Below, one piece after another: positions 29,906 through 49,739 of a stretch of 60,815 nt of DNA. Source of the stretch: Candidatus Hinthialibacter antarcticus (GTDB lineage Bacteria > Hinthialibacterota > Hinthialibacteria > Hinthialibacterales > Hinthialibacteraceae); contig JAVCCE010000056.1 in the NCBI GenBank assembly GCA_030765645.1, positions 1 through 60,815 on the forward strand. Direction: 5' to 3'. A program made the translations under genes and the position numbers. The first letter of the stretch is position 1. Every line of letters begins with the position of its first letter. The notes below the pieces were generated by a model. That model was not told the origin of the DNA. It made no database searches and worked only from the letters and a program-made list of their open reading frames with translations.

Positions 29906-32434
29906 ATGAACTTTATTCAGCGCAATGCAGCCATCGCATGTTTTATGTTTTTTCTAAGCATAACTAGCAGCCAAAGCCAGGTCGTCATTAACGAAATTCA
30001 CTACAACCCGCCCGATATCGGAACCGAAGACGGCCTCTTTCGCGAATTCATCGAACTCTATAACGCAGGCAGCGAAAGCGTCGATCTGACCGGATACGCT
30101 TTCGATGACGGAATTACGTATACGTTCCCAGACAATGCAAGCATTTTTCCCGGGCAATATATTGTTCTTGCGAAAAATTTAAACCATAGCGTCTGGCGCA
30201 ATAGTTCCTTTCGCATCTTTGGCCCGTATGAAGGCCGCCTCGATAACGGCGGCGAGCGCGTCACGCTGCGAAATGCGCAAGGCATAATTGTCGAAACCAT
30301 CCGTTATAACGACGCCCCGCCCTGGCCGCGCGGAGCAGACGGCTATGACGCATCGCTAGAGCGCGTTGATCCAACTACGCCAACGGATGACTCTCATTCC
30401 TGGCGGGCGTCAACCAATCCAGGCGGAACCCCCGGCGCAGTGAACTCGGTGCATGGAACGCCGCCCTACCCCACTCTGACCGAATCAACCTTCACCCCCT
30501 CAAACCCGACATCGTCCGACGCAGTGCAGATGCAAGTCACGTTAGACGCGCCCGCGTTAATTGAATCGGTATTTCTGAACATTGACGACGGCGCCAATGA
30601 AATCACCGGGACCACCGTCTTTGAATCCGCCAGTCCATGGCGGTTCTGGAAAGGGACCACTGCGCCTTCGGACGCTTCCGAATGGACAACGCTAGCGTTC
30701 CGGGATTCAAACTGGCAAAGCGCGCAAGGCGGCTTCGGCTACGGCGACCTGGACCGCGTCAATACAACGCTAAACGACATGCGCAGCAATTACTCAACGC
30801 TGTATCTCCGAAAAGCCTTTTCACTGCCCACCCTAAGCGCCCGTCAGGCGTTTTTTCTCGACATTTACTATGACGACGCCTTTATTTGTTATATCAACGG
30901 CGTTGAAGTCGCCCGCGAAAACGCGCCGGATACTTACACCAACAATTCACTTGCGGCAGGCGGCCATGAGTCGAATTCGCTTTCGACATTTGCTCTGCCC
31001 CATTCGGTTTTCACGCAGGGCGAAAACGTCATTGCGCTGGTCGGCTTCAATATCTCGCTGGGGGGCAGTTCTGACTTCGTGCTGGCGCCGTCGCTGCGCT
31101 ATCAAGACAACAACTCATCACGAATCGAGATGACGAAAACGGCGCAAACCAACGCCAGCGCCATTTATCAAGCGACGCTGCCCCCGGCGCCGTCGCAAAC
31201 CATTGTCCGAACCAACCTGACAATTCAACTGACGGACGGCGGCGATGTGACCTTGCCGCATTCCGCCGAACCCACGCCGTTTCTTTCGTATTTCGTTTAT
31301 GACAATGAGATCGAATCGACGCTGCCGCTGCTTTGGACCATGCAGCCGAAATCCAGTCCCTTGTTGACCAATGGACGCACCTACGGCGCGGCGGTCGCGT
31401 TGCCCATTGGCGCCGCGCATCCAACGCTTTTCGATGGTGCGCTCATCATACCCTCCGAGAGCGGGCGCGAGAAAATTCGCTTCATCAAAGGCGCAGAATT
31501 TTTCGGCGACCGCACCATCAATGTCATCCCCGAAGTTCCAACCGGCGGCACCAACGCGGGCATCAGTTCGCCTTATCGTGAGCATTTGGGCTATTGGTTC
31601 TTCAGTCAGATGGGCGTGCTGTCGCCCTGGGGTGAATTCTACCGGACGATTGAACTGCCCTTCTCAACCCAAAACACCCAACGTCAACAACTGGTATTTC
31701 AACAAATCAACGAACGCTTTTTAGAAATGCACGGGCTTGACTCAAACGCGGATTTATACAAGCTCGAGCGCCGCGCCAACCCCAACTGGGAAAAACACAC
31801 CAACCTCGCCGAAGGCAACGCCAGCATTAACGAATTGCTCAACGCGTTAAATTCATCCCGCCGCGAGACCATTGAGACCCGTTTTAATCTCGACAACATG
31901 CTGGCCTTTAGCGCCGCTTCGATTTTCACCAGCAACTGGGACGGCTACTGGCAAAATTATTGGACGTACCTCGACCCCGCCACCAACCGCTGGGAAATGT
32001 ACCCCTGGGACCTGGATTGGATTTGGGGCGCCACCCCGCCGCCCAACACGGGGCCGATGTACGCTGAGATGCCGCTATCGTTTCCCATTGACGGCAACGC
32101 CATCGGCGACCGCAACGTATCGCGCCCGGCAGGCCCCGTCACCTCGCCGATGCACCAAGACCCTCAGTATTATGAGGCCTACATCCAACGCTTGAGCGAC
32201 GAATTTAACCATACCTTCGGGCAGGCGTTTCTCTTTGCGAAAATTGATGCCGACCAACAACAATTGTTAGCGGATTTAGCATTACTCAACCAGCAGACGG
32301 GACGTAATGTGGGGCAACGGATACAGCAGATACAAAGTTCGTATGAAACCTTAAAAGAATACATCATCCGCCGCCGCGCTTATCTGCAACCCCGTTTGCC
32401 GCAGAGCGTCAACGACTGGGCGGTCTATGAATAA
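29906..32434 (+). CDS. Exported LTD and CotH-kinase-like protein
   Basis: This 842-residue protein has a signal peptide (MNFIQRNAAIACFMFFLSITSS) and an N-terminal lamin-tail domain (about 25-165). Lamin-tail marks include VVINEIHYNPP, FIELYNAGSESVDLTGY and GERVTLRNAQG. After a beta-rich middle part, residues about 540-800 look like a CotH kinase domain (LYKLERRANPNWEKHTN, FNLDNMLAFSAASIFTSNWDG and YPWDLDWIWG). In Bacillus, CotH phosphorylates coat proteins. This LTD-CotH combination is common in exported proteins of Planctomycetes-like bacteria and its substrates are unknown. GAGGA lies eight bases before the ATG. The C-terminus, SVNDWAVYE, resembles the ends of two other exported proteins in the window. 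Confidence 0.82.
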   Translation: MNFIQRNAAIACFMFFLSITSSQSQVVINEIHYNPPDIGTEDGLFREFIELYNAGSESVDLTGYAFDDGITYTFPDNASIFPGQYIVLAKNLNHSVWRNSSFRIFGPYEGRLDNGGERVTLRNAQGIIVETIRYNDAPPWPRGADGYDASLERVDPTTPTDDSHSWRASTNPGGTPGAVNSVHGTPPYPTLTESTFTPSNPTSSDAVQMQVTLDAPALIESVFLNIDDGANEITGTTVFESASPWRFWKGTTAPSDASEWTTLAFRDSNWQSAQGGFGYGDLDRVNTTLNDMRSNYSTLYLRKAFSLPTLSARQAFFLDIYYDDAFICYINGVEVARENAPDTYTNNSLAAGGHESNSLSTFALPHSVFTQGENVIALVGFNISLGGSSDFVLAPSLRYQDNNSSRIEMTKTAQTNASAIYQATLPPAPSQTIVRTNLTIQLTDGGDVTLPHSAEPTPFLSYFVYDNEIESTLPLLWTMQPKSSPLLTNGRTYGAAVALPIGAAHPTLFDGALIIPSESGREKIRFIKGAEFFGDRTINVIPEVPTGGTNAGISSPYREHLGYWFFSQMGVLSPWGEFYRTIELPFSTQNTQRQQLVFQQINERFLEMHGLDSNADLYKLERRANPNWEKHTNLAEGNASINELLNALNSSRRETIETRFNLDNMLAFSAASIFTSNWDGYWQNYWTYLDPATNRWEMYPWDLDWIWGATPPPNTGPMYAEMPLSFPIDGNAIGDRNVSRPAGPVTSPMHQDPQYYEAYIQRLSDEFNHTFGQAFLFAKIDADQQQLLADLALLNQQTGRNVGQRIQQIQSSYETLKEYIIRRRAYLQPRLPQSVNDWAVYE

Positions 32435-32462
32435 ACCACCCTCGACTAAAGTCGAGTGGTTT
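32433..32462 (+). terminator. Hairpin after the CotH-like gene
   Basis: CTCGAC/GTCGAG and AAACCA/TGGTTT stack with a 2-base bulge on the left arm, directly over the stop codon. Only a short T run follows, so termination strength is uncertain. Confidence 0.5.
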
Positions 32463-32605
32463 GGTTAGCGGATAAATCCGCCTCAAAATTCACAGGTTCT
32501 CCCCCCGAAGTTTGGGGGGGGGAGTTAGAGGCAATGTCATTGACTTAAGCCTTTTAGCCCCTCTTTTTAAGGGGGGACGGCGCTGAAAGCGCCAGGGGGG
32601 ATTCC

Positions 32606-32704
32606 AAAACAGCACAAATAAAGCGATACATTCAAGCAATATTTCAAGGGCTGGCTTCATTTTATTCAGCCTTGCCCTTGCCACCCCTTAAGTCAATGAC
32701 ATTG
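32606..32704. repeat. Dispersed repeat R1, copy 2
   Basis: It matches 1-99 with one visible mismatch. Poly-G/C palindrome fragments (AAGGGGGGACGGCGCTGAAAG and CTAGGGGGGATTC) flank it on both sides, forming a composite repeat block at 32500-32720. No gene is apparent in 32435-32806. Confidence 0.88.
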
Positions 32705-32748
32705 GGCTAGGGGGGATTCTGATGCACCCGCGCCGTAGGTATGGCATT

Positions 32749-32781
32749 AAAAAAGCCTGCATCCAAAATGAATGCAGGCTT
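32749..32781 (-). terminator. Terminator of the hydroxyacyl-CoA dehydrogenase gene
   Basis: AAGCCTGCAT and ATGCAGGCTT form a 10-bp stem around a 9-base loop, followed on the minus strand by a T run. It lies 26 bases after the stop. Confidence 0.88.
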
Positions 32782-32806
32782 TCGGTTTTATCTATAGGAA
32801 AATTGC

Positions 32807-33706
32807 TTAGTTGGCGCTGCGGACAATACTTCCGTTGACGCGCGCCGCTTCCGGGCGTTCATATTCAAAGAAGCCCTTGCCCGACTTCACGCCGAGGTGG
32901 CCCGCCCGTAACAGTTTTTTCAACAGGGGGCACGGACGGTATTTGATTTCGCCGAGTTCATGGAACAAGTGGTCCATTTGAAATACGACGGTATCAAGCC
33001 CCATCGCATCCGCGTAGTGCAGCGGCCCCAGTTGCATCCCGCAGCCCAACATCATGGCTTTGTCGATGTCTTCCGCAGACGCGACGCCTTCCATCAAGGC
33101 GTAAACCGCTTCGTTGATTAAAGGAACCATAATACGCGTGGTGACATAGCCCGGCCATTCATACACTTCAATCGCCGTCTTGCCGATTTCATCTGAAAAG
33201 CGCTTCACCGTCGCCATGGTTTGGTCGGAGGTTTCAAGCCCGCGCACCAACTCAACGACAGGGCGGCGATGCACCGGCGCATGAAAGTGAATGCCAATGA
33301 ATTTTTCGGGACGGCCCGACTCCATCGCGAGGTTACTGATTGAAAGAGTCGAGGTATTGGTCGCGAAAATCGTACGCGGCCCGCACACTTTTGAGAGTTC
33401 ACGAAACAGCTCGGTTTTTAACTCGAGGTCTTCATTGATCGCTTCAATTACGAGATCAACATCGCGAAAATCATCTAGCGATTTTGTTGTGACGATCTTC
33501 GCAAGAATCGCTTGTTTTTCTTTTTCGGTATGGCCCCACTTGGCGATTTCGTCGTCAATTTCCGCCGCAACGCCCGCCAGAGCGCGTTCAGCCGATGCAT
33601 CTGAGATTTCTCTCAGAACGATGTTGAATCCCGATTGCCCTACGACGTGCATGATACCCTGGCCCATGGTGCCGCCGCCGATAATGCCGATGCGTCGAAT
33701 TTTCAT
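32807..33706 (-). CDS. 3-hydroxyacyl-CoA dehydrogenase family protein
   Basis: This 299-residue enzyme oxidises 3-hydroxyacyl-CoA (for example 3-hydroxybutyryl-CoA) with NAD. The N-terminal Rossmann motif GIIGGGTMGQGIM lies at residues 8-20. The catalytic His region is IHFHAPVHRRPVVELV, where most relatives have an HFxNP-type motif, so the active site differs in detail. The C-terminal helical domain (about 190-290; YVTTRIMVPLINEA, DKAMMLGCGMQLGPL) is complete. GAGGAT precedes the ATG at 33706. The physiological substrate is inferred only from the family. Confidence 0.88.
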   Translation of the reverse strand: MKIRRIGIIGGGTMGQGIMHVVGQSGFNIVLREISDASAERALAGVAAEIDDEIAKWGHTEKEKQAILAKIVTTKSLDDFRDVDLVIEAINEDLELKTELFRELSKVCGPRTIFATNTSTLSISNLAMESGRPEKFIGIHFHAPVHRRPVVELVRGLETSDQTMATVKRFSDEIGKTAIEVYEWPGYVTTRIMVPLINEAVYALMEGVASAEDIDKAMMLGCGMQLGPLHYADAMGLDTVVFQMDHLFHELGEIKYRPCPLLKKLLRAGHLGVKSGKGFFEYERPEAARVNGSIVRSAN

Positions 33707-33837
33707 TTGTATATCCTCAAAATGATGTGAGTGCGATGAAGTCATTGGCTACAAATAAAATGCAACCTCTACTAACGTTCTAGTCTAACACAGGAAGCGC
33801 CCAATGCGGAACGGTTTGAAACGGAAAAAACAAACGT

Positions 33838-34230
33838 TTAACTTTTTATCCGAGGTTGTTGAAGCAGTTCGCACGCCATATCCAACACATCCGCCCGGCG
33901 AAAGGGTTTTGGCAAATAGGGGCAAGACCCATGCGATAAAAACGTCCGGTAGCGCTCTTCGTCCGTATAGGCGCTCATCACAATCACAGCGGTAGCCGGA
34001 TAATACCGTTTGACTTCTTGAATTAAAGACACCCCGTCTAGATTGGGCATTTGCAAATCCGTAATGACCAAATCAACCGGGCTTATTTGCAACTGTTCTA
34101 ACGCATCTTTCCCGTCCTCTGCAAGTGAAACAGTATAGGAACCGTCGGCGAAGATTGTTTGCAGAATCGAGCGGTAGGAGCGGTCATCATCAACGATGAG
34201 AACGGAGTGTTTATCTGTTAGATTAACCAT
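33838..34230 (-). CDS. Single-domain response regulator (CheY-like)
   Basis: This 130-residue receiver domain has no output domain. The phosphoacceptor Asp58 (LVITDLQMPNLDG), the acidic pocket DDD near 14-16, Ser86 in place of the switch Thr (VMSAY) and Lys108 (LPKPF) are all in place. No kinase or chemotaxis gene is adjacent. It could relay phosphate in a two-component chain or bind a flagellar-motor or pilus target. A sigma-54-like site at 34634-34648 has wrong spacing and was rejected. Confidence 0.9.
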   Translation of the reverse strand: MVNLTDKHSVLIVDDDRSYRSILQTIFADGSYTVSLAEDGKDALEQLQISPVDLVITDLQMPNLDGVSLIQEVKRYYPATAVIVMSAYTDEERYRTFLSHGSCPYLPKPFRRADVLDMACELLQQPRIKS

Positions 34231-34792
34231 GCTGTACGCAGCCCAAAGAAGTATCTAAATTTTGTGATGCTGTCATCACATCAAAGCAGTAAGTATGCCA
34301 AGTAACAAATGCGGCCTCAGACTTCACCTTGCAAAACCAACACGAAACGGATGCCAATAACAATAGTTGATGCACCGGGTCTGTGTTCAATGAAGGTTCC
34401 ATACGACATTCAATTGACCAATCCGCAGGTTTCACTCCATGGAAACAACACAGATCAAAACACTTATAACCTTCTTGCCGCAATAGACTTGACCGATCTT
34501 CAATCATCAGCGGGCAATTTAAAAATAGGAGATATTCATACGGATTCATCTAAACACAACCATGCTTATCCATCTTGTAATATTTAAAGTGACTACTTTT
34601 TATTATTTTTCGGTAGCAAAGAATGACGTCTATGCAATTTTTTGCCATTCTTGGCAATCAGAAGCCCCGCCGTTGTCATATTTGGCAAGAGGCGAATTTC
34701 TTCCCTAATTGAAAAATCCCACAATTGGCTATTAAACAAAATCACATTTTCGACGATAATGCGACAATGCAGAATTTTGTCTAAAGGTATGG
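34231..34792. other. Gene-poor stretch
   Basis: No convincing gene was found in these 560 bases. A minus-strand frame at 34223-34549 (108 codons, Cys-rich, no family resemblance) and a plus-strand frame at 34309-34587 exist, but neither has a good ribosome site or plausible protein features. The stretch is AT-rich and probably holds the promoters of the flanking genes. Confidence 0.5.
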
Positions 34793-35602
34793 ATGATGGT
34801 TAGCGGACCGACCGCAGTCAGCGGCAACTCGCTCATTCAATTTCGGCCTGATCCAGGCGAGCCAGCCGCCCGCCTCAAAGCGCCGGAAACTCAAACCGCT
34901 CTGCTTGTCACCGCACAAGAGCAGCGCAACGAAACCCGTCTGCGCTCTCAAGCCATCGCCCGCGGCGACGACATCGTCTTTTCAAACCGCACCTTCACTC
35001 TCGGCGTGGGCAACCTCAGCCCCATCTATAACGGCGGGCTGACCACCGTCTCTACGCGCTCCGACGCCAATGGCTTCGCGCCCGATAACCCGCCAAGCGC
35101 ATCGGCGAATGAAACCAGCCAAACCGAAGACGAACCGGTTGAACAAGATGCGCGCGCTATCCCCGAAGACCCCGAAGAAGCAGTCCAACCCAGCGAGGAA
35201 GAACTGCAACGCGAAGAACAATCCCTGGATAACGACGAGTCGCGCCTCGAACGCAACTTGACCCGCGCCCAGGTCGAACAAGAGCAGGCCATCCAGAGCG
35301 CTGACCCCGTGCAGTTTCAGCAAGCGCAGCGCGACGAGGCCCAACTCGAACGCGAGCAGGAAACGCTCGACCGCGAAAAACGCCGGAACGAATTAGACCA
35401 GGCGGAACAACGTCTGCAAGGTTTCCTTGAAGATGCTAGCGGGGCGCTGCAAGACAGCGCGAACGCAGCAGCGGGCGTGTTAGATGTATTGTTTGGATTG
35501 AACGCGCCGACGGTTGCCGATTCAAGCGCACCCGCGCCCGCTCTGGCGCCCGCTGGAGGCGGCAGCCCCGGCTTCTTCGCCGGCGCCCCACGGGTGGGGT
35601 AG
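34793..35602 (+). CDS. Coiled-coil protein of unknown function
   Basis: This 269-residue protein has no recognised domain. The N-terminal 100 residues are Pro/Ser/Thr-rich (IQFRPDPGEPAARL and TFTLGVGNLSPIYNGG). An acidic segment (about 100-150) leads into a strongly predicted coiled coil (about 140-220) rich in Glu, Gln and Arg (EREQETLDREKRRNELDQ). A low-complexity Ala/Pro/Gly tail follows. No signal peptide is visible. The DNA has a different base texture from its neighbours, and a long opposite-strand frame in the coiled coil is a shadow. The start could be 34796 (both after AAAGGT). A scaffold or flagellar-type role is possible but unsupported. Confidence 0.65.
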   Translation: MMVSGPTAVSGNSLIQFRPDPGEPAARLKAPETQTALLVTAQEQRNETRLRSQAIARGDDIVFSNRTFTLGVGNLSPIYNGGLTTVSTRSDANGFAPDNPPSASANETSQTEDEPVEQDARAIPEDPEEAVQPSEEELQREEQSLDNDESRLERNLTRAQVEQEQAIQSADPVQFQQAQRDEAQLEREQETLDREKRRNELDQAEQRLQGFLEDASGALQDSANAAAGVLDVLFGLNAPTVADSSAPAPALAPAGGGSPGFFAGAPRVG

Positions 35603-35686
35603 TTTTCAGGTATTATTACCTTTTTTTCAATTTTCTCTATCGCTTTACGCCCCCCTTTTGTAAGGGAGGCTTGACCGATTGCAACC

Positions 35687-36304
35687 TTACTTTTCTATCA
35701 TGACATCATACCGCACGAAGGTTTTGTCGGGCTTGAACGGCATCGACCAATCCCAGGTGGTAAATTCACTTTTAATGACTTGCCCGTCGATGAGAATTTG
35801 GACTTCGCGAATCGCCGATGACTGTTCGGCGACCGTGTTCACGATGCTGTAAATGGTCGCCCATTCCGCCAGCGCGTTGAGTGAATTTTTGTCTATGAGT
35901 TGCGGCGAAAATGAGATATACGCACAGTGGTCTTGTTCGCGCCAGAAGACCGACTGCAACTGCGTGCCTTCGGGGACGGGATTGAGCATTCCGTCTTGCC
36001 GGGGGCCGCGCATCAACTCGGTCACAGCGGTGTGCAGTCGTTCGGTCAGCGTTTCGTTCGGCAGGGTTTGGACCACTTCATACGACAGCAGGTCATGCGA
36101 CGCCGTCGGGAAATAGAGCCGAATCATGTCCATCGGCCCCGTGGGCATTTCCGCAGGCTCTGATTGTGCGTCGATGATTGCCTGGGGGATGGGAATGTCG
36201 GTGGTTTCGAGTTCTTGCAGCCGCAAATAGAAATAGCCCGCCGCCGCCAAACTGGCGGCAAGAACCAAGATCAAAACGCCGATGAATATCGTCCGTAAAT
36301 CCAT
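35687..36304 (-). CDS. GerMN-domain protein
   Basis: This 205-residue protein has an N-terminal membrane anchor (about 6-28, IFIGVLILVLAASLAAAGYFY) and a GerMN domain (about 60-200). The domain reads MIRLYFPTASHD..., then TELMRGPRQDGMLNPVPEGTQL, YISFSPQLIDKN, IVNTVAEQSSAIREVQILIDGQ. GerM proteins of spore formers bind near peptidoglycan-remodelling machinery, and in other bacteria they accompany amidases. Here the gene starts six bases after the stop of an amidase-fold gene, so the two probably act together at the cell wall. The downstream 80 bases before the opposite-strand gene hold a partial CCCCTTTT-type repeat. Confidence 0.82.
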   Translation of the reverse strand: MDLRTIFIGVLILVLAASLAAAGYFYLRLQELETTDIPIPQAIIDAQSEPAEMPTGPMDMIRLYFPTASHDLLSYEVVQTLPNETLTERLHTAVTELMRGPRQDGMLNPVPEGTQLQSVFWREQDHCAYISFSPQLIDKNSLNALAEWATIYSIVNTVAEQSSAIREVQILIDGQVIKSEFTTWDWSMPFKPDKTFVRYDVMIEK

Positions 36305-36310
36305 CCCGGC

Positions 36311-37543
36311 TCAGCCCCCGTCCACGCGATAGGCAGGCTGTTCTAACAACACGTTTTGGATCGCCGTTGTGAGATAGGCCGCGATAGACATCTGAATGGT
36401 TTCGCTGCTGAGATAGCGCGCCGACGCCGCGTGATTGAGGTTGCCCAGTTCAAGTACAACACCGGGCATGGTCAAACCGCGCAACACCGCCATGCGGCCA
36501 GGACGCGGATCGGCTTCGACTTTAATCAGGTTGGTGGTGCGATATAACGACGCGAGTTCCTGCAATAACGCTCCTGCCAGACGGCGGCTGGAAACAACAT
36601 GGCGCTGATATGCGTTATGCCACGTTTGCAGCCCGGGAGCGAACACTGTATTGGGGTCAAACGGCGGCGCCACATCTAATTCGGGGTTCATATAATACGC
36701 GGCGGCGTGAGCGACGTTGGCGGAATGCAACCGCCCGCATTGAATACTGATAAACAGGCGGCCTTGTACGCGGTTGGCTGCGGCGATGCGTTGTTCATTG
36801 GTGACGCCGCTTGCGCCGCGCCGAGTAAGCGTGACGTCAAAGCGCCCATCTTCTTTGAGCAGGCTCTCGATTTTTTCACAGATCGACAGCGTCAGTCCCG
36901 CTTCACGTTGCGAAAACATCGCAGAGGCGCCGGGTTGTTCGGAGTCGTTGCCCGGGTCTAACACAATCATGGCGCCGCTAACGCGATTGTAAGGTTGAGA
37001 CGGCGCATAGAAATCAATCGTCGGCGTCGGCTGCGCGGGGAAAAACTGAAACGGCGGCGGGGTTGAAGTCGGCCCGACTTGATATTCATACCCTGTATCG
37101 CTTTGACGAAACGGAACGGGCGTCGGCGGCTCCGCGCCTGCTTCAGCGAACGCGACCTCTGGAAACAATATGACGTCTACCATATAGAAAGGGACATAGA
37201 TCACGCTATTTTGCCGCAGCGGCGTTACTCCAGTGTGGACAATGCGCGTCCCAACCATCACGCGTTGGTCGCCAAGGCGCATCCCCACGCGGACGCCGTC
37301 GGGGCGATAAAAAATCACCGTGCCCGAAATGCCGTCATAGGTCCATCGTTCAGGGAAATACGACGCCAGATCAGCAGCGGAAATATATTCGCCGCCTTCG
37401 AGCACTTTGGTTTGGAAGCGAATGGTTTGGAATTCCGTTCGTCCGAGTAGTTCCCGCGCAAACGGCGTTTGCAAACAGACAAGCGCCAACCCGACGGCGG
37501 CGATAAGAAAGAAGGTCCGGTTTTGCAAGACTGGCGTCAGCAT
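36311..37543 (-). CDS. Amidase_3-fold protein with lost zinc ligands
   Basis: This 410-residue protein has an N-terminal signal or anchor (about 10-26) and a beta domain similar to the copper-amine-oxidase N-terminal/AMIN type (about 48-130). The C-terminal N-acetylmuramoyl-L-alanine amidase (Amidase_3) fold covers about 190-405. The fold's motifs are recognisable, but the first zinc His is Asn199 (DPGN for DPGH) and the SIH His is Gln268 (ISIQ). Glu214 and the catalytic-type Glu365 (VVLELG) are kept. It is therefore probably not a working amidase and may bind peptidoglycan or activate a partner. The start at 37543 was chosen for the hydrophobic N-terminus. The GerMN gene follows by 6 bases. 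Confidence 0.78.
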   Translation of the reverse strand: MLTPVLQNRTFFLIAAVGLALVCLQTPFARELLGRTEFQTIRFQTKVLEGGEYISAADLASYFPERWTYDGISGTVIFYRPDGVRVGMRLGDQRVMVGTRIVHTGVTPLRQNSVIYVPFYMVDVILFPEVAFAEAGAEPPTPVPFRQSDTGYEYQVGPTSTPPPFQFFPAQPTPTIDFYAPSQPYNRVSGAMIVLDPGNDSEQPGASAMFSQREAGLTLSICEKIESLLKEDGRFDVTLTRRGASGVTNEQRIAAANRVQGRLFISIQCGRLHSANVAHAAAYYMNPELDVAPPFDPNTVFAPGLQTWHNAYQRHVVSSRRLAGALLQELASLYRTTNLIKVEADPRPGRMAVLRGLTMPGVVLELGNLNHAASARYLSSETIQMSIAAYLTTAIQNVLLEQPAYRVDGG

Positions 37544-37628
37544 TCCGTTTGGTCCGATTGCGCGAAAGATGAACGGCAAGCAAAAATTAGCACAAGCCGT
37601 TGTTTTACCAAGGGCGCATAAGGGTATA

Positions 37629-41540: not shown

Positions 41541-41744
41541 TGGCGTCCTGAGCAGCGCGAAGCGAGTGGCGCGATCGTTTCAGTTATCAGCGAGCGAAAC
41601 ATATACGTCTATCAGTTGAACCAAGTTAGAATACCAACAAACCGTGTTTGAGATAAGGTTTTATTGTTGTATCAAACAATTGAATTTGGCTGAGGCAATA
41701 CGCCTCGAAGCGTCCAAAGATCAAAAATCACCTTGGGAGCCGTC

Positions 41745-42761
41745 ATGTCAAAATCGAAACCCAAACTCGCCGTCACTATGGGCGATCCGTCCGGCGTCGG
41801 GCCGGAGATCATCGCCAAAGCCTTTCATCAGGACGATGTTTTGCAGCGTTGCCGCCCGGTGATCGTCGGCTCAGAACGCGCCTTGCAACGGGCGTTTGAA
41901 TTCACCGGCGTTTCTTTCGCATATCAAACCGTCACCGGCCCCGCCGAGGCGAACGACGGCGTCTGTTTATTCAATGACGAAACCGGCTTAGGCGCGAACC
42001 TGCCTCTCGCAGAGATTGACGCCTCCTGCGGCGATGCGGCCTTTCGCTGGCTGTCGCAAGCGATCACCTGGGCGAAAGCGGGCGCCGTCGACGCCATCGT
42101 CACCGCGCCGCTGCACAAAGTCGCCATGAATCAGGCCGGACACCATTTCGCAGGCCATACCGAAATTCTCGCCGACCAAACCGATACCGAAGAGTTCAGT
42201 TTGATGTTAATCGCCGGCGGGTTCCGGGTGGTGCACGTCACCTGCCACGTCGCCATGAAAGAGGTGTCGTCGATGCTCACCCCAAAGCGCATTGCCATGA
42301 CGGTGCGCCTATTCAACCAGGCGCTGACGCGGCTCGACGGCAAACCGCCGCGCATCGCCGTCTGCGCCTACAACCCTCATGCGGGCGAAGAAGGCCTGTT
42401 TGGCCGCGAAGAGATCGACGCCATCGCCCCGGCGGTCGAGCAATGCAAGCGCGACGGCGCCAACGTCTTTGGCCCCTACCCCAGCGACTCGATTTTCCCG
42501 CAACTAATCGGCGGAAAATTCGACGGCGTGGTGGCGATGTATCACGACCAGGGGCATATTCCATTCAAGACGACGAATTTCGGGTTTGATCCCGACAAGG
42601 GCGAGTGGAAAACTGTCACGGGCGTCAACGTAACGCTCGGCCTACCGATAATCCGTACTTCGGTCGACCACGGAACGGCCTTCGACCTAGCCGGAACCGG
42701 CAAAGCCTCCGAACGCTCGTTGCTCGACGCGATAGACGTAGCGATTCGGTTGGCGGAGTGA
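41745..42761 (+). CDS. pdxA: 4-hydroxythreonine-4-phosphate dehydrogenase family
   Basis: This is a 338-residue PdxA, an NAD- and metal-dependent enzyme of pyridoxal-phosphate synthesis. The motifs MGDPSGVGPEIIAKAF, TAPLHKVAMNQAG, HFAGHTEILAD, NPHAGEEGLFG, YHDQGHIPFK and VDHGTAFDLAGTGKA are all present, with His and Asp metal ligands intact. A short insertion after PFK (NFGFDPDKGEWK) is seen in PdxA2-like members, some of which act on related sugar acids, so the exact substrate is not certain. GGGAG precedes the ATG at 41745. It stands alone between unrelated genes. Confidence 0.9.
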   Translation: MSKSKPKLAVTMGDPSGVGPEIIAKAFHQDDVLQRCRPVIVGSERALQRAFEFTGVSFAYQTVTGPAEANDGVCLFNDETGLGANLPLAEIDASCGDAAFRWLSQAITWAKAGAVDAIVTAPLHKVAMNQAGHHFAGHTEILADQTDTEEFSLMLIAGGFRVVHVTCHVAMKEVSSMLTPKRIAMTVRLFNQALTRLDGKPPRIAVCAYNPHAGEEGLFGREEIDAIAPAVEQCKRDGANVFGPYPSDSIFPQLIGGKFDGVVAMYHDQGHIPFKTTNFGFDPDKGEWKTVTGVNVTLGLPIIRTSVDHGTAFDLAGTGKASERSLLDAIDVAIRLAE

Positions 42762-42828
42762 TAGAAATTTCCGTGTGGAGCGCAAGCCGCTGCGGCGATC
42801 AGCCCGCTCTACCAGGGCTTTTTGTTTT

Positions 42829-42911
42829 GGGGAGGGCGAACCTCCTGGTGAGCCGCATGAAACCGATAACGCTTCTCATTCTCGCGGCTCGTCGGGAGAC
42901 TCGCCCTCCCC
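42829..42911. repeat. 83-bp palindromic element R3, copy 2
   Basis: It is the same length as the element at 15360-15442, and its two 28-base arms match it in inverted orientation. The 27-base loop between the arms shares only about 12 positions with the other loop. It lies between pdxA and the anti-sigma gene, past both stop codons. The rest of the intergenic sequence 42762-43021 carries only a terminator. Confidence 0.85.
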
Positions 42912-42962
42912 TCGCTTTGACCGTGATGCTTTTCTGGAAAGCATGTGACCACACAGGCTAAC

Positions 42963-42987
42963 AAAAACGCCCCTGTGGACAGGGGCG
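42963..42987 (-). terminator. Terminator of the sigma/anti-sigma operon
   Basis: CGCCCCTG and CAGGGGCG form an 8-bp stem followed on the minus strand by TTTTTG. It lies 35 bases after the anti-sigma stop. Confidence 0.85.
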
Positions 42988-43021
42988 CTCCAGATGAGGC
43001 ATTTGTGAATGGTAGAATGGT

Positions 43022-44047
43022 TTACAGATCAGGCGTGTTGGCGCCAAGCCCTTCGACCAATGGCAGGCCGCCCTCAAATTTCGGCGCGATGGGGGCTTTT
43101 TGTTGCAAGGAACGGTCGCTGCGCGCTTCATAGAAGCGGTCGAGACGCGCCAGCAAACTGGTGTCGATGGGGTCGGGCGCGCTTAAGATGGTCTTTCCGT
43201 TGCGCGTGATGACGTTGGTTTGTTGTTCATTGGTCAAGACGGTGCTGCCCATCATGCTGCGGCCTAATTTTTCGACGATAACCCGGCCTTCACGCACGCC
43301 AACCAGCGTGTGCTTATCGGCGCCCACTTCGACGCCGACGTAGAACTGGGTTCCAAAAACAGTTGTCTTTGAGTTGGTCGTCACCACGCTAAAGGCTTCT
43401 TTGGCGGGGCGTACATCAATAAAAATTTCACCCGATTTCAGGCTAACCCGGCGGTCGTTGCCTACGCTGGCGGCGCCGCCGCCTTCCTGAAACGACTCAA
43501 TCGAAAACCACGTGCCCGCCGAGGCGTACAATGTGGAGCCGTCCGGTAATTCAAAAAACTCGCCTTCGGGGCGAACCACGTACATCAGGTCATATAAGGT
43601 CGTGCGCATCACCTTACCGCTGCGGGTGATGTTGAAATATTGGTCACTCGCCACATCGCCCACTTGAGCAGTCAACAGAGCGCCGACCAAGCAGACCAGC
43701 AGCGAAATCGCGGCGGCCATGTGCGGGCGGCTGCGCACGAACGTCACCACCGTCATTTCATAGAGCCAGCCCTGCATACGCGTCCAGATGGTTTCGGGGC
43801 TGCGGTGTTCGAGCAAGTACATGACGTTGGCGGAAAACGCAACATCCGGCGCAAAGGGCGCGGCCTGGCGGCGCAGGCGCCCTGCGAGCATCGATTCTTC
43901 TAGGGACAGTTCCGACAGAAACGCCGAGCAGTCGGCGCACTTGTTCACATGCCGGTCAACGCGGGAGCATCCGCTTTCCGACAGTTCGCCGTCGTGGTAC
44001 AAGACCACTTCTTGTTCCCATTCGGTACAGCAGCCTTTAACGGCCAT
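43022..44047 (-). CDS. Anti-sigma factor with zinc finger and FecR domain
   Basis: This 341-residue membrane protein begins with a zf-HC2-type anti-sigma domain (about 1-60) with the motif H-x-x-x-C-x-x-C in RHVNKCADC. One membrane helix (about 140-160, MAAAISLLVCLVGALLTAQ) separates it from an external FecR beta domain (about 190-310; ELPDGSTLYASAGTWFSI and VSLKSGEIFIDV, TTVFGTQFYV). In FecR systems the external part senses a signal and the internal part holds the sigma factor. The ATG at 44047 overlaps the end of the sigma gene by 11 bases, and GGAGAGAAG precedes it. The ligand is not evident, since no TonB receptor is nearby. Confidence 0.87.
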   Translation of the reverse strand: MAVKGCCTEWEQEVVLYHDGELSESGCSRVDRHVNKCADCSAFLSELSLEESMLAGRLRRQAAPFAPDVAFSANVMYLLEHRSPETIWTRMQGWLYEMTVVTFVRSRPHMAAAISLLVCLVGALLTAQVGDVASDQYFNITRSGKVMRTTLYDLMYVVRPEGEFFELPDGSTLYASAGTWFSIESFQEGGGAASVGNDRRVSLKSGEIFIDVRPAKEAFSVVTTNSKTTVFGTQFYVGVEVGADKHTLVGVREGRVIVEKLGRSMMGSTVLTNEQQTNVITRNGKTILSAPDPIDTSLLARLDRFYEARSDRSLQQKAPIAPKFEGGLPLVEGLGANTPDL

Positions 44048-44603
44048 ACTCTTCTCTCCGTGCCTGTTCCATCCGCTCCCGTAAAATACGACGACCTTCA
44101 AACAATCGAGACCGCACTAAGTCCACTGGCCAATCCAGCAATTCGGCGATCTCCAGATAAGAATAATCTTCCATGTATTTCAGCCTGAGCGGCGTCCGGT
44201 ATTTTTCAGGGAGTCGCTCGAGCCGTTTCAGTATATCTTGCCCGAGTTCGCCGCCGTCTGACGTCTTGGGCTTAAGCGCCACGACGTTTGGGGAATGTTG
44301 GGGCAGCGATTCGTCAAACGGTTCGGATTGAATCTTGCGCGACCGGATCGAGTTGTAGCAAAGATTGCGGGTGATGCCAAACAGCCAGGGGCCGAATTTG
44401 TTGGGGTCTTCTATCTCTCTGAGTTTCTGAAACGCCAGCAAGAACGCCTCTTGTGCGATATCTTGGGCTTCCGGCCCATGCCCGAGCATTCCGTTCGCGA
44501 GAAGAAACACTTTTTTCTGATAGCTTTCTACCAGTGGGCGAAAACACTCCCGCTTGCCTTTGAGCACCTGTTCAATCAATGTTGCCTCAGTTTTTTCAGG
44601 CAT
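44037..44603 (-). CDS. ECF-type RNA polymerase sigma factor
   Basis: This 188-residue sigma-70-family factor has only regions 2 and 4. Region 2 includes PEAQDIAQEAFLLAFQKL and FGPWLFGITRNLCYNSIRSRK. Region 4 includes LERLPEKYRTPLRLKYMEDYSYLEIAELLDWPVDLVRSRLFEGRR. The start at 44603 is chosen at MPEKTEATLIEQ; a frame extending to 44681 adds residues that look non-native. The downstream FecR/anti-sigma gene overlaps its end. The genes it controls are unknown. The palindrome at 44700-44731 lies in its promoter region. Confidence 0.9.
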   Translation of the reverse strand: MPEKTEATLIEQVLKGKRECFRPLVESYQKKVFLLANGMLGHGPEAQDIAQEAFLLAFQKLREIEDPNKFGPWLFGITRNLCYNSIRSRKIQSEPFDESLPQHSPNVVALKPKTSDGGELGQDILKRLERLPEKYRTPLRLKYMEDYSYLEIAELLDWPVDLVRSRLFEGRRILRERMEQARREEYGR

Positions 44604-44699
44604 CAACGAAACCGTCCGTTTTCTAAAAGAGATAGCACAAAAAGGCCAAAGTGTCAGAAGTTGGTTACTTTTTTCCCCCAATTCAACATTCTGCTAAAA

Positions 44700-44731
44700 A
44701 GTATACCTCTTGTGAAGGATTGTGGTATACT
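44700..44731. promoter_or_regulatory. Inverted AGTATACC/GGTATACT pair between divergent genes
   Basis: Perfect 8-base arms AGTATACC and GGTATACT lie 16 bases apart. Each contains a TATACT hexamer pointing outward, one toward the sigma gene and one toward the exported protein gene. They could be divergent -10 boxes or an operator. No clear -35 boxes at 17-base spacing were found. Confidence 0.4.
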
Positions 44732-44867
44732 GGCAGCACAATCACACACCCGCATCATGTGAATCAATTCATTTGTAACTTAATACAAATCAAACATCAT
44801 TGTAATCACAATCTCATTTCCGATCTCTTTTATGTGATGCTCATAAATTTATCTTGGAGGAAGTACA

Positions 44868-46253
44868 ATGAAAAAGCGTTTTTTCGTCGTTGCATTACTC
44901 GTCGCCCTCGCGCCAGTGTTTGCCATCGCGCAAATAGAACCCACGTTTACCATCAGCGACCCCATCACCCTGTTCCCTGATACGCAGACCAAGGAAGCCG
45001 GTCTGGCGGTCAACACCACCGAAGGGATTAATGAAGTTCTGTTTGTCACCATTGATACCATCGCCATCGACGTTGACCCCATCACGGGCGAAGACGCCGC
45101 CGAAGCCGTGTTTGGGTTTTATTACAATCCAATCACGCTTGCGCAAATTGGCGAACCCTTCATCATCGTCGGCAATCCGCGCGGTAGTTTGCAAAAACTG
45201 ACGGTAACCTACAACCCCGTCAACAATAAGTATTTTGTTGCAGTTGCGGCGGACAGCTATTCACCAAGCGGCGCCCGCGTTCCCTTGATGGCCATCGTCA
45301 ACCCCAGCAGCGAATCTGAGCATGTGTTCAAAGCATGGGCGTGGGACGCTGAAACAACGCAAAATTATCAAGATACCGCCGTCGCCGCCAGCACCAAAAA
45401 CGGAAACTTGCTGTATGTCAGCGAATATTCTCCTGCCGAAGACGGCGGTGAAGGCGTCATCGGCTTGTTGTATGACATGGAAGGCAATTTACTTTCCAGC
45501 GGAAACACTCGTTTAGACCAAGCCGCATCCGATAAAATCATTTCCGATGAAGATGAAGACGATCCAGATGTATATTACCTGCCTGAAAATGATGTTTTTC
45601 TTTTCATTTGCAACACAGACCTGGGTGACGTCCCGAACCGTATTTTCGCCGAAGTCATCCAGCCTGAAATCGGTTCTGACGGCTTGTTGCAATTGGGCGA
45701 GATTCAAATCGTGTCTCAATTACGCAAAGACTTCGATGCAGGACACCCATCAGCCGTTGAAAACCCCTTCACGGGTGAATTCATCGGTGCATTAGATTAC
45801 GGGAACGGCTCTGAAGGCGGCGACTTGTTCTTCTTCAACATTGGCGGTGCGCCAGGTTACGCCTTGACCGAATCGCAAGATCAAATTCCGTACCTTGAAG
45901 CAGCGGGCAACAATCCCTTCAGTCAGCGCCACCCGCGCTTTGCGGTCGATCAAACCAGCGGCGTCATCGTCGTGTCTCACAACGCCCGCGACGGCGTCTT
46001 TCAAGGCATGGCGTTCACACTACTCGGCCCTGACGGCGCCATTCTTCCTGGTCGCCCGGACGATTTGTACAAATTAGTCGAAACGCCAACGGTCATTAGT
46101 AATGACGCTAACTCCCATGACGTAAAATGGGACCCGAACAGCGATTCGTTCCTGGTGATTTACGCCACAGGCGGCGGACTGACCAACGTCGTTCGTTTGA
46201 CTGTCACATCAGACCACATGCCCGCAGACATCGACAACTGGATGACCTACTAA
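44868..46253 (+). CDS. Exported protein of unknown function, W-x-x-Y tail
   Basis: This 461-residue protein has a signal peptide (MKKRFFVVALLVALAPVFAIAQ). The body is beta-rich, with repeating strands that suggest a beta-propeller (for example EAGLAVNTTEG, KYFVAVAADSY, GNLLYVSEYSP, HPRFAVDQTSGVIVVSHNAR). No known catalytic motif was seen. GGAGG precedes the ATG. The C-terminus DIDNWMTY resembles the ends of the CotH-like protein and of the protein at 48174-49739. It is transcribed away from the sigma operon and ends with a strong terminator. Confidence 0.75.
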   Translation: MKKRFFVVALLVALAPVFAIAQIEPTFTISDPITLFPDTQTKEAGLAVNTTEGINEVLFVTIDTIAIDVDPITGEDAAEAVFGFYYNPITLAQIGEPFIIVGNPRGSLQKLTVTYNPVNNKYFVAVAADSYSPSGARVPLMAIVNPSSESEHVFKAWAWDAETTQNYQDTAVAASTKNGNLLYVSEYSPAEDGGEGVIGLLYDMEGNLLSSGNTRLDQAASDKIISDEDEDDPDVYYLPENDVFLFICNTDLGDVPNRIFAEVIQPEIGSDGLLQLGEIQIVSQLRKDFDAGHPSAVENPFTGEFIGALDYGNGSEGGDLFFFNIGGAPGYALTESQDQIPYLEAAGNNPFSQRHPRFAVDQTSGVIVVSHNARDGVFQGMAFTLLGPDGAILPGRPDDLYKLVETPTVISNDANSHDVKWDPNSDSFLVIYATGGGLTNVVRLTVTSDHMPADIDNWMTY

Positions 46254-46281
46254 TTCCGTTTCGTTATTACGCAACTCTTAA

Positions 46282-46313
46282 AACGCCTGGACGAGTGTCC
46301 GGGCGTTTTTTTT
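46282..46313 (+). terminator. Terminator of the 44868-46253 gene
   Basis: AACGCC-T-GGAC and GTCC-G-GGCGTT form a stem with one mismatch, followed by eight T. It lies 28 bases after the stop. Confidence 0.9.
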
Positions 46314-46404
46314 ATTTGGCGACGTTTGGCATTCATCATGCTTTGGCAAGAAAGCATCATGAACGACAATCAAACTTCCATCCATATTAACTTGCGAGAA
46401 TGCA

Positions 46405-46449
46405 GAATCCCCCCTAGCCCCCCTTATTAAGGGGGGCTAGGGGGGATTC
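46405..46449. repeat. Perfect 45-bp palindrome
   Basis: Two 21-base arms that are exact reverse complements enclose a 3-base loop. The arms start GAATCCCCCCTAG and carry runs of six C and six G. Related fragments occur at 32557-32604 and 32705-32719. No gene is apparent between 46254 and 46605. Confidence 0.85.
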
Positions 46450-46605
46450 GTAAATGTCTTTCGAGTTGCCTGCTTTGATAGCCGAACATGCAGCCGCGTC
46501 ATTGCGCACAAGGCATTTTGTCCACCGGGTAAAACGATTCACGTCTTTTTATTTCTCTATCGCTTGCCGGACGCATAGAAACAACGCACAATCGCTGCCA
46601 AGCCT

Positions 46606-47982
46606 ATGAGCGACTGGACTCCCCTGTTTAAGCATACGTTTTCGCCCCAATCCGAAGCCCCGCCCCCATCAGCAGGCGTGTGGTTTGCGGTCATGCACGG
46701 CATTCAATCGTTGCGAATCAATTGCTCCATTGATGCTCCGCCGCCATTGGTTGAAATTATTTTATTTGGCCCCAACAACGAATTTCGCGGGCGCTGGGAC
46801 GCCGCATTTCAAGGATGGAAAGTCCTCGATCAACAAGGCGCCGATGATGGATTCATCACTGGCGATATCCAGTCCGGTCAATGGCGCATCGAACTCCGAC
46901 ATGATGACGCCGCATTAAGCGAACTACGCGCCTCGGTTCTCGTAGAGGGTTCTACAAGCGCCGTACACAAAATGCCTGAACTGCTGATCTACCAACCCGA
47001 AGACGAAGAACCCGACGAAGATGCGCCCTCGTCATGGATGATCGGCGAACTATACGAAACCACTACCCGTTCCAACGGCGCCATGTCGGTTAATCAAACG
47101 CTGTCCGCCTATCAAAATAAGGATTGCGGTTTCGTCGTGCTGGCCGACCGCAACCAGCCGCCGTTAGAAAAATACGCAATCGACCCGGGCTTATCGGTCA
47201 TTCGCGGGCAATCACTGCAAACGCCGCAAGGAAACGCCCTGCTGCTTGGCGTACGCGAACGCATTGATTGGAAAGACGCCGAGGGCGAGAAACCCCTCGC
47301 CAGTTTGATACGCGAAACCCATATCGCAGACGGGCTGTTCTGCCTCGCGGAACCGTTCGCCCGAGAACACACGCCTTGGCTTGAGGATGAAGAAGCAAGC
47401 GCCTTGATTGATTTGCTGCAAATCTGGCCGGGACAATGGGAAAAGCGCTTTGCTGAAATTCAAAAAGCCATGACCTGCTGGGACGCCCTATTGAACCAGG
47501 GCTTCCGCATTTACGGCATGGCGGGCAAAGGGCCGCAAGGACGCGCCGACGACGAAGACGCAGTTCGTATTCCAAAAACGGTTGCATTCACACAAGGCCC
47601 CAGCGAAACCGCGCTGCTTTCGGCGCTCAAACAAGGCCGTTTTTATAGCACCGTCGAACCAGCCCTCTCGCTTTGGACGGAATCGGCGCACGGCGGCGCC
47701 ATGATCGGCGATGAGATGCGCCTGCCCATCGGAACGCCCTATCTGCTCTACCTCTCCATCAGTCAATTAGAAAAAGGAGGATATTTCACCGTCCGCACCA
47801 ACGAGGGAATCTATTGTCAAACACCCTACTCAACCCGTAAAGACACCACATTTAAGTTGGTCGGGTCCGCCCATTCGGGCTGGCAGTGGTTCCGGCTCGA
47901 GGTTTATCAATTCGCGCGGCCTTTTGATCGACTCATTGCTTTTAGCAACCCTATTTTCATCCGTGGAATCGTAAGCGCATAG
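46606..47982 (+). CDS. Degenerate PHP/CehA-like metallohydrolase-fold protein
   Basis: This 458-residue protein follows the layout of CehA/McbA-type PHP-domain phosphoesterases, but the metal-binding motifs are changed. The family's DLHxHT reads ELYETT (148-153), SDG reads SNG (156-158) and TDHN reads ADRN (180-183). Around 310-320 MAGKGPQG takes the place of GGSDAH. Later, GPSETALLSALKQGRFYST keeps the pattern of the family's C-terminal helix. No signal peptide is visible. It is probably a non-catalytic binding protein, though a chemistry without those ligands is possible. Its neighbours are exported proteins of unknown role. Confidence 0.6.
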   Translation: MSDWTPLFKHTFSPQSEAPPPSAGVWFAVMHGIQSLRINCSIDAPPPLVEIILFGPNNEFRGRWDAAFQGWKVLDQQGADDGFITGDIQSGQWRIELRHDDAALSELRASVLVEGSTSAVHKMPELLIYQPEDEEPDEDAPSSWMIGELYETTTRSNGAMSVNQTLSAYQNKDCGFVVLADRNQPPLEKYAIDPGLSVIRGQSLQTPQGNALLLGVRERIDWKDAEGEKPLASLIRETHIADGLFCLAEPFAREHTPWLEDEEASALIDLLQIWPGQWEKRFAEIQKAMTCWDALLNQGFRIYGMAGKGPQGRADDEDAVRIPKTVAFTQGPSETALLSALKQGRFYSTVEPALSLWTESAHGGAMIGDEMRLPIGTPYLLYLSISQLEKGGYFTVRTNEGIYCQTPYSTRKDTTFKLVGSAHSGWQWFRLEVYQFARPFDRLIAFSNPIFIRGIVSA

Positions 47983-48173
47983 AATTCATAGATATATACA
48001 CAACCGATCTTTAATTATTTTTCATTTTTTACTAGCAATTACTTTTTATATATCGTAAGATCACTACTCATCTCGCAAATACTTCCAGTGAAACAATTTA
48101 TTAATCGTTTTTGTTAAATATTCATTTCGACTAGTTCATCTTTGTCTATTTTTTTTGTTGTAGTGGAGGAATT

Positions 48174-49739
48174 ATGATGAAATTAGTATTTCGTAATGTA
48201 GTTGTTTGTTGCGTCGTCTCATTGGTTGTTTCTTCGGTATCAGCCCAGACGCCTCACCGTGCTGAAGATGTTGGACTTGTGCGCGCCACGCCCGATTCCA
48301 TTGGGTTCAACACTGGAGCTGACAATCAATCCAACTGGGAAGGCTACATGTCAAAAACGGGCGACGGAACAATCATCCTGTGCGTCAACACCTTCGCAGA
48401 CGGAGATGCAGGCGGAGATTCAGAAGTCGCCGCGCTCGTTGTCATGTTTCCTGACGGAAGCATTCATGAGTTTTGGGGCTTCTATTCGGATGACGGCTCG
48501 CCATATACCAAGAATATGGACATCATCCGCACCAACGGCAATCCGCCTTCCGTTGCAGGCGATAAACGCCCGGGCAGCCGCAAATTCATCGTCGGCAATG
48601 AAGCAACTCCGATGGATTTCGACGAATTTCAGAGCGACGGTCGTTGGGACGGCAATGATTACTCCGACCATATTTTCGCTGTGCAAATTTTAGAGATGAC
48701 TGACAATGGCCCTGTTAAAGTATCCAACGTCATCGACCCGGCCTATGGCGGACAAACGGGTCAAGGCGTCGGCAAAATTCGTAAAGGCGGAACCATCGGC
48801 CTGTCAAACGGCAACTTCGTCGCTGGCGGCGAAGACCGCACTGGCGAACGGTATCCAAACAGCAGCATTATCAACGGTGAAGACGGCTCCATCGTTGCTG
48901 GCCCGATGAACTTAGCGGGCGACGGCAATTCAAACGAAATGTGGGAAGGCCTGGTCGCGTATGACGGCGGCTTCGCCATTCGTTTAAATCGGCTCGGTAA
49001 CGCCCCGGCTGGCGAACCCAACCCGATACGTCTTCGCTTCTATACCAATGCGGGAGAATTTCGCGGCGAATGGATTCAAGACACCGTTGCTGTTGAAGAA
49101 TTCGGCGGCGAAGCGTTAGACCTCAACAATAACCCTAACGGTCGCACCACCACAATTAACGAAGACACTCGCGGCGATTCGGTCCGCGTCCGCGCGAACA
49201 TCGACGGCAACGCCCTTTACTATGCCGGTCGCGGTTGGGACTTAGACGGCGCCGATAAAAAGTGGGTGTATTTAACCAAAATTGATGCAACCACCATGGA
49301 AACCATCGGCGAAATTCGCGTCAACGAGTTGGCCGAAGACCCAAATAGCGACTTCGAAAACTGGGCGGAAGCGGGACGCGTTTCGTGTGACGTTGACCCC
49401 AACGGCAATGTGACTGTTGTTTGGTCAGACACATCCAATAACTTAAAAGAGCAAGTCATCGCTCGTATATTCAATAGCGACATGGAACCAGTCACGCCGT
49501 CGTTCCTCGCCTTCCAGGGCAGCGACATTGGCTTCGGCGCTGATGGCGGAGAGATCACAGACATTGAAACGCGTAATCCTGACGTCGCCATGACCAGCCA
49601 GTACATCATGATTTCTGCGATTGCGACGGACTTCACCATCACTTCATCGCAAGAACCCGCTCCGGCAAAATCCAGCCTCTTCACCGTGCTGGAAAACCCA
49701 TTAGCGGATTCGGACGTATCACAATGGAGCGTCTATTAA
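48174..49739 (+). CDS. Exported protein of unknown function, W-x-x-Y tail
   Basis: This 521-residue protein has a signal peptide (MMKLVFRNVVVCCVVSLVVSSVSAQ). The body is acidic and rich in Asp, Gly and Asn (for example DGNDYSDHIFAVQI, GRTTTINEDTRGDSVRV and NGNVTVVWSD). It has the look of a beta-propeller or lectin-like surface protein, without catalytic motifs. The C-terminus DVSQWSVY matches the pattern seen in the proteins ending at 32434 and 46253. GGAGG lies before the first ATG; 48177 is an equally good start. It ends with a strong terminator. Confidence 0.72.
   Translation: MMKLVFRNVVVCCVVSLVVSSVSAQTPHRAEDVGLVRATPDSIGFNTGADNQSNWEGYMSKTGDGTIILCVNTFADGDAGGDSEVAALVVMFPDGSIHEFWGFYSDDGSPYTKNMDIIRTNGNPPSVAGDKRPGSRKFIVGNEATPMDFDEFQSDGRWDGNDYSDHIFAVQILEMTDNGPVKVSNVIDPAYGGQTGQGVGKIRKGGTIGLSNGNFVAGGEDRTGERYPNSSIINGEDGSIVAGPMNLAGDGNSNEMWEGLVAYDGGFAIRLNRLGNAPAGEPNPIRLRFYTNAGEFRGEWIQDTVAVEEFGGEALDLNNNPNGRTTTINEDTRGDSVRVRANIDGNALYYAGRGWDLDGADKKWVYLTKIDATTMETIGEIRVNELAEDPNSDFENWAEAGRVSCDVDPNGNVTVVWSDTSNNLKEQVIARIFNSDMEPVTPSFLAFQGSDIGFGADGGEITDIETRNPDVAMTSQYIMISAIATDFTITSSQEPAPAKSSLFTVLENPLADSDVSQWSVY

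Follow-up and report, generated by a model that had tools for sequence, protein, structure and literature searches.

A short C-terminal tail is shared by exported proteins with otherwise unrelated bodies in Candidatus Hinthialibacter antarcticus. We analysed a 60,815-nucleotide stretch of its DNA (contig JAVCCE010000056.1 of assembly GCA_030765645.1; hereafter the window), which is contig C56 of a genome of 5.15 Mb and 78 contigs (G000). Three predicted exported proteins of the window, P0001, P0002 and P0003, carry the tail, and the similarity of their ends had been pointed out in an earlier reading made without database searches (the sequence-only reading). The tail is nearly confined to Sec-exported proteins, and its conservation in two phyla, on bodies unrelated to one another, is at the level of the protein sequence. 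It is a kind of C-terminal protein tag with an undescribed motif, outside the tripartite CTERM class, and is probably a linear sorting motif, bound by a dedicated putative receptor in the envelope that would serve export across the outer membrane or anchoring.

To define the tail, we used 1.64 Mb of stretches from G000, in which genes were called with a home-made hexamer model (87% coding) and signal peptides were assigned by a simple home-made rule. This sample held 49 proteins with the tail, which extrapolates to ~150 per genome. The consensus is [TS]-[SDA]-[VI]-x-[DNE]-W-[SMA]-[LIVM]-[YHF], followed by 0–3 residues and the stop. Counted from the Trp (present in 56 of 62 tails), position −5 is T/S, −4 is S/A/D/P, −3 is mostly V (44) or I (12), −2 is free, and −1 is most often D (26), N (11) or E (8); after it come S/M/A at +1, L (35) or else I/V/M at +2, and Y (37), H (13) or F (5) at +3. 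No residue follows the +3 position in 45 tails, while one, two and three follow in 12, 2 and 3, respectively. Tails therefore end mostly in Y, H or F, with no more than three residues after it, and have neither a membrane helix nor an Arg/Lys cluster. The linker ahead of the tail is mildly Pro-rich overall, with a Pro/Thr repeat in some proteins (for example, PTPTPTEVTSIIDWLLHVDH). Of 58 matches in exported proteins at a strict threshold, 52 lay no more than 3 residues from the end, and none lay 4–29 residues from it. The pattern given in the sequence-only reading, [SD]-[VI]-x-x-W-x-[VT]-Y, was too narrow in its exact form, with only one further protein in the sample, but the wider tail that it pointed to is real. 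Three protein ends in G001, a genome of family f3, carry a variant with Arg after the Trp (W-R-L-Y; L234, L254 and L262).

The tail was strongly enriched on exported proteins. In the G000 sample, W..Y within the last six residues occurred in 25 of 321 exported proteins, 0 of 136 membrane proteins and 1 of 596 cytosolic proteins. We then added a small sample of 0.8 Mb from four relatives, left out the window, and searched for the regular expression [VI]..W.[LMIV][YFH].{0,3}$. The enrichment among signal-peptide proteins over cytosolic and shuffled ends, on which the sequence-only reading had staked its proposal, was clearly present: 33 of 467 exported proteins matched, compared with 3 of 1,063 cytosolic and membrane proteins (odds ratio 27, P = 1e-14, Fisher test), and 1,000 shufflings of the ends gave a mean of 0.16 matches and a maximum of 2. 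A position-specific scoring matrix (PSSM) of nine positions, grown from a seed of exported proteins and applied at a threshold of 7 bits, matched 53 of 476 exported, 3 of 163 ambiguous, 0 of 210 membrane and 6 of 880 ‘cytosolic’ proteins, at least one of the last having an evident signal peptide that the rule overlooked. It also matched 0.05% of internal cut points in exported proteins. Part of this PSSM enrichment is circular, since exported proteins served as the training set; the results from the regular expression, the shuffles and the phylum census described below are free of this circularity. None of 38 proteins with a lipobox had the tail, compared with 53 of 438 others (P = 0.014).

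The bodies that carry the tail are diverse. The 62 tail proteins fell into 40 groups without detectable blastp similarity (single linkage), although a minority share repeats and form one blastp cluster of 14. Their domains include FG-GAP, laminin-G, NHL/Vgb, WD40, CBM11-like and CotH/lamin-tail, and further bodies are MtrC/MtrF-like multiheme cytochromes, a subtilase with a P-domain and an M1 peptidase with fn3; by these assignments, the bodies are of predicted surface or secreted type. Codons for the same residue were identical in 36% of cases in tails and 39% in bodies; as identity is no higher in the tails, selection acts on the peptide rather than on copied DNA. Three of the tail-bearing multiheme cytochromes lie inside 18 kb (G000:C59:100950-118277), a clustering that suggests surface electron transfer.

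To follow the tail across phyla, we searched genomes as DNA for V-x-x-W-x-[LVMIF]-Y-stop, with the reversed pattern as control. The 14 genomes of the window's phylum, Hinthialibacterota, gave 309 matches versus 28 reversed, and the tail was present in all five families sampled, with individual loci confirming it in f2, f3 (as the W-R-L-Y variant), f4 and f5. It was also found in bacterium RI_285 and ‘Candidatus Omnitrophota’ Zod_Metabat.949, relatives identified through FtsK. A second phylum, which we tentatively take to be Sumerlaeota (40 genomes around G173 and G025), gave 249 matches versus 25 reversed; the count reached 39 versus 0 in a single genome, and several families had no match (for example, f168, f170 and f174). 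These matches, ...TSVSDWTLY and ...STDVDDWMVY among them, terminate long reading frames, several of which encode signal peptides, and the PSSM from the first phylum gives them good scores. Among the matches listed, the residue before the Trp, which the pattern leaves free, was D/E/N in 63% of cases in the first phylum, 58% in the second and 6% in other phyla. Across ~370 genomes of other phyla there was no excess: no genome had more than 7 matches, and controls were similar. An earlier census pattern, which undercounts lineages with the W-R-L-Y tail (f3) or a His end, gave 284 matches versus 337 for the control in 179 genomes, two of them from the second phylum.

Within protein families, the tail is conserved where its surroundings are not. 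Homologues of P0003 were found in 12 of the 14 genomes of the phylum; in an alignment of 19 sequences, 30–52% identical to the first, only 4 of 628 columns were invariant, and the tail Trp was among them. The tail Val was kept in 18 of the 19, behind a linker that varies in length and sequence. P0002 has orthologues in all six genomes of its family, in which the Trp is invariant and its neighbours vary (IDNWMTY, VNGWMVY, VSDWMIQ, TEHWSIY, VDSWMLM and VNDWNLF). In the AlphaFold2 models, both proteins have a propeller-like body, predicted confidently for P0003 and with somewhat lower confidence for P0002. In both, the tail lay past the confident last strand with a predicted local distance difference test score (pLDDT) below 50 (residues 514–521 of P0003 and 451–461 of P0002). 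Conservation together with predicted disorder would be the signature of a peptide motif that is read by a partner.

We compared the tail with known C-terminal signals. The sequence-only reading had seen no LPXTG, PEP-CTERM or type IX motif in these ends, and our searches agree, with no helix or basic end, no CTERM model and no type IX tail domain above cut-off. LPXTG, PEP-CTERM, GlyGly-CTERM and MYXO-CTERM signals are tripartite, with a transmembrane helix and a basic end, and the tail has neither; the NCBIfam models of CTERM tags had no match in the 13 tail proteins scanned. The likeness to PEP-CTERM lies in one tag on many unrelated exported proteins, and ‘VPEPSTWAL’ loosely recalls tails such as ‘VPNWSVY’, a resemblance only, as the tail lacks the helix and Arg cluster. 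Exosortase (PF09721) was not detected in G000 or in any genome of f1, f2 or f3 and is present in f4 and f5 (G010–G013), the tail being found in both sets of families; as it is absent from f1 and f2, the families richest in the tail, the PEP-CTERM/exosortase system was rejected. Proteins of the MYXO-CTERM/myxosortase system of Myxococcota are sorted to the cell surface with a type II system (PMC11980579). Their tag, too, is C-terminal, belongs to a phylum and marks dozens of Sec-exported proteins that are unrelated, but it has three parts, namely a signature containing an invariant Cys, a helix that spans the membrane and an Arg-rich terminus, whereas the tail has no Cys, helix or basic end. 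GlyGly-CTERM, the rhombosortase tag, marks type II substrates in Gram-negatives and can act as an independent motif (PMC3237569, PMC13393428). It combines a Gly/Ser-rich motif with a hydrophobic region and basic residues, unlike the tail, which has no Gly run and no helix. Type IX signals share with the tail a C-terminal position, in their case for outer-membrane secretion and surface anchoring, but are folded domains (~75 positions in Pfam) rather than ~9 residues. Domains of the Por_Secre_tail family had no match over cut-off in the 14 genomes and one sub-threshold match in G000, and a type IX tail domain was rejected on this ground; a SprA search had no match in the 14 genomes, its control set being equally silent. 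In the open-access literature we found no prior description of the motif, nor of a tag in either phylum.

We favour a sorting tag because the bodies are of predicted surface or secreted type and lipobox proteins lack the tail. Sec would export the tail proteins, their signal peptides would be cleaved off, and the proteins would then fold in the periplasm. The last ~10 residues, [TS]x[VI]x[DNE]Wx[LIVM][YHF], would stay flexible and bind, as a short peptide, to a single dedicated receptor in the envelope, which would hand the proteins to an outer-membrane exit, most plausibly a type II system, or anchor them at the surface. The proposal of the sequence-only reading, a short tag that marks one class of exported proteins, holds up in the enrichment, the unrelated bodies, the conservation in two phyla and the predicted disorder; the function of the tag we infer, in all three steps of recognition by a common receptor, surface delivery and a type II route.

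Secretin genes were present in all 14 genomes, with 4–9 in each. In G000, a GspD over the curated cut-off adjoins GspK- and GspM-type genes, and further pseudopilins are present; with the secretins, this neighbourhood makes type II secretion the likeliest exit. In Shewanella, cytochromes of the MtrC type are secreted by type II systems, and the tail on MtrC-like cytochromes here fits such an exit. The MYXO-CTERM and GlyGly-CTERM precedents show that a C-terminal tag can be linked to type II secretion. In Vibrio cholerae, the periplasmic PDZ domain of the GspC protein EpsC selects type II substrates (PMC12369372), a precedent for periplasmic substrate selection by PDZ, although the signals there lie in Ig/Fn3 folds and not in a C-terminal peptide.

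Two secretin arrangements in G000 stand out. In one, GspD is split over two genes (G000:C15:44390-46993; L053:4390-6990), beside GspF-, GspK- and GspM-type genes; the first product has N0 and short secretin domains (469 aa) and the second has the secretin channel domain (390 aa). In the other, two adjoining short secretin genes encode proteins of 360 and 373 aa beside a TPR protein (G000:C66:45164-47367; L065:5164-7364), each with a signal peptide and matching the C-terminal part of secretins only. Secretin pairs are similarly arranged in other genomes of f1 and f2, and the C66 pair is a possible exit for tail proteins.

Several points weigh against a receptor-read sorting motif. No receptor candidate was found. 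At the best type II locus, the protein in the GspC position (231 aa, between the GspM-type gene and GspD) had no PDZ domain and no Pfam match, so that an obvious docking site is missing there. The surface location of tail proteins is itself a prediction from their sequences, and the tail is present on only about a tenth of exported proteins. Body type alone does not predict it, as there are also FG-GAP, WD40 and laminin-G proteins that lack the tail.

How uncultured Gram-negative phyla select their surface proteins is the wider question here, and the type II secretion signal has been elusive. An undescribed sorting pathway in the two phyla is about as likely as not. Its signal would be a soluble C-terminal peptide of nine residues that has no membrane anchor, and the dedicated envelope receptor reading this peptide would export or anchor more than 100 surface proteins per genome. 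If it exists, a short, portable, sequence-defined tag would make the surface proteomes of these phyla predictable from sequence, and would point to a receptor necessarily common to both.

There is a minor but real chance that the tail is instead an assembly peptide, which, like a minimal dockerin, binds a shared scaffold or surface layer once the protein has been secreted and has no role in secretion itself. Such a peptide would fit a motif that is short, disordered and preceded by linkers on surface-type bodies of unrelated kinds, and the aromatic residues would suit peptide or glycan binding. However, both multiheme cytochromes and matrix-like proteins carry the tail, and no scaffold with repeated binding modules turned up, in an analysis that made no systematic search for one. 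Less probable is a handle for envelope quality control, whose hydrophobic C-terminus would be read by the PDZ domains of DegS/DegP/Prc-type proteases or chaperones. PDZ canonically binds the extreme C-terminus, by which DegS senses misfolded proteins (PMC12369372), and the tail is C-terminal, hydrophobic and aromatic-ended. However, 17 of the 62 tails have 1–3 further residues, some of them charged, so the Tyr need not bear a free carboxylate; Val and Trp are conserved 6 and 3 residues further in, and one would not expect so many proteins of surface type, and no others, to carry a degron.

That the tail is an intramolecular cap, completing the last strand or blade of its own body, is very improbable. 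Among the window proteins, P0002 and P0003 are predicted propellers, in which C-terminal strands often close the ring, but tail pLDDT is below 50, linkers are variable and Pro/Thr-rich, and the folds are many and different; the predicted disorder and variable linkers thus weaken the last of the roles suggested by the sequence-only reading, to sort, anchor or fold. A signal for insertion of outer-membrane barrels by the β-barrel assembly machinery is disfavoured and hardly credible: the C-terminal residue is aromatic as in a β-signal, but the bodies are soluble domains rather than barrels, and the spacing Val−6, Trp−3, Leu−1, Tyr−0 lacks the alternation seen in a β-signal. Finally, chance is ruled out by the lack of any excess in shuffled ends, cytosolic proteins, reversed patterns or other phyla, and shared ancestry or copied DNA ends, for which the cluster of 14 repeat-sharing proteins might speak, are refuted by the ~40 unrelated groups and differing codons.

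Features of the three window proteins are given in Table 1. All three reading frames translate to the ends claimed for them (SVNDWAVYE, DIDNWMTY and DVSQWSVY). The signal peptides claimed with them are clear for P0002 and P0003, whereas that of P0001 is plausible and rated ‘ambiguous’ by our heuristic. A Pfam search of P0002 and P0003 gave no family above cut-off.

Table 1. Tail proteins of the window, with their approximate signal peptides and C-terminal tails; tail scores are from a PSSM trained without the window.
Feature	Position	Strand	Remarks
P0001, predicted exported protein	29906..32434	+	Lamin-tail domain and CotH kinase domain (Pfam); ends ...SVNDWAVYE
P0001 signal peptide (approximate)	29906..29980	+	Start ATG 29906; plausible; ‘ambiguous’ by heuristic
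P0001 C-terminal tail SVNDWAVYE	32405..32431	+	One extra residue past Tyr; score 13.5
P0002, predicted exported protein	44868..46253	+	Predicted beta-propeller, sialidase/YncE-like by fold; ends ...DIDNWMTY
P0002 signal peptide (approximate, clear)	44868..44933	+	
P0002 C-terminal tail DIDNWMTY	46227..46250	+	Trp invariant in 6 orthologues; pLDDT <50; score 14.9
P0003, predicted exported protein	48174..49739	+	Predicted propeller-like fold; ends ...DVSQWSVY
P0003 signal peptide (approximate, clear)	48174..48248	+	
P0003 C-terminal tail DVSQWSVY	49713..49736	+	Trp in 1 of 4 invariant columns, 19 homologues; score 19.7

The remaining exported proteins of the window lack the tail, as the sequence-only reading had stated, with one borderline case: the exported protein at 26146-27507 on the minus strand ends in GWKAHQ, possibly a divergent tail, and may be compared with the ends VDDWKKHDH and CIDWRAHE in the relative G006.

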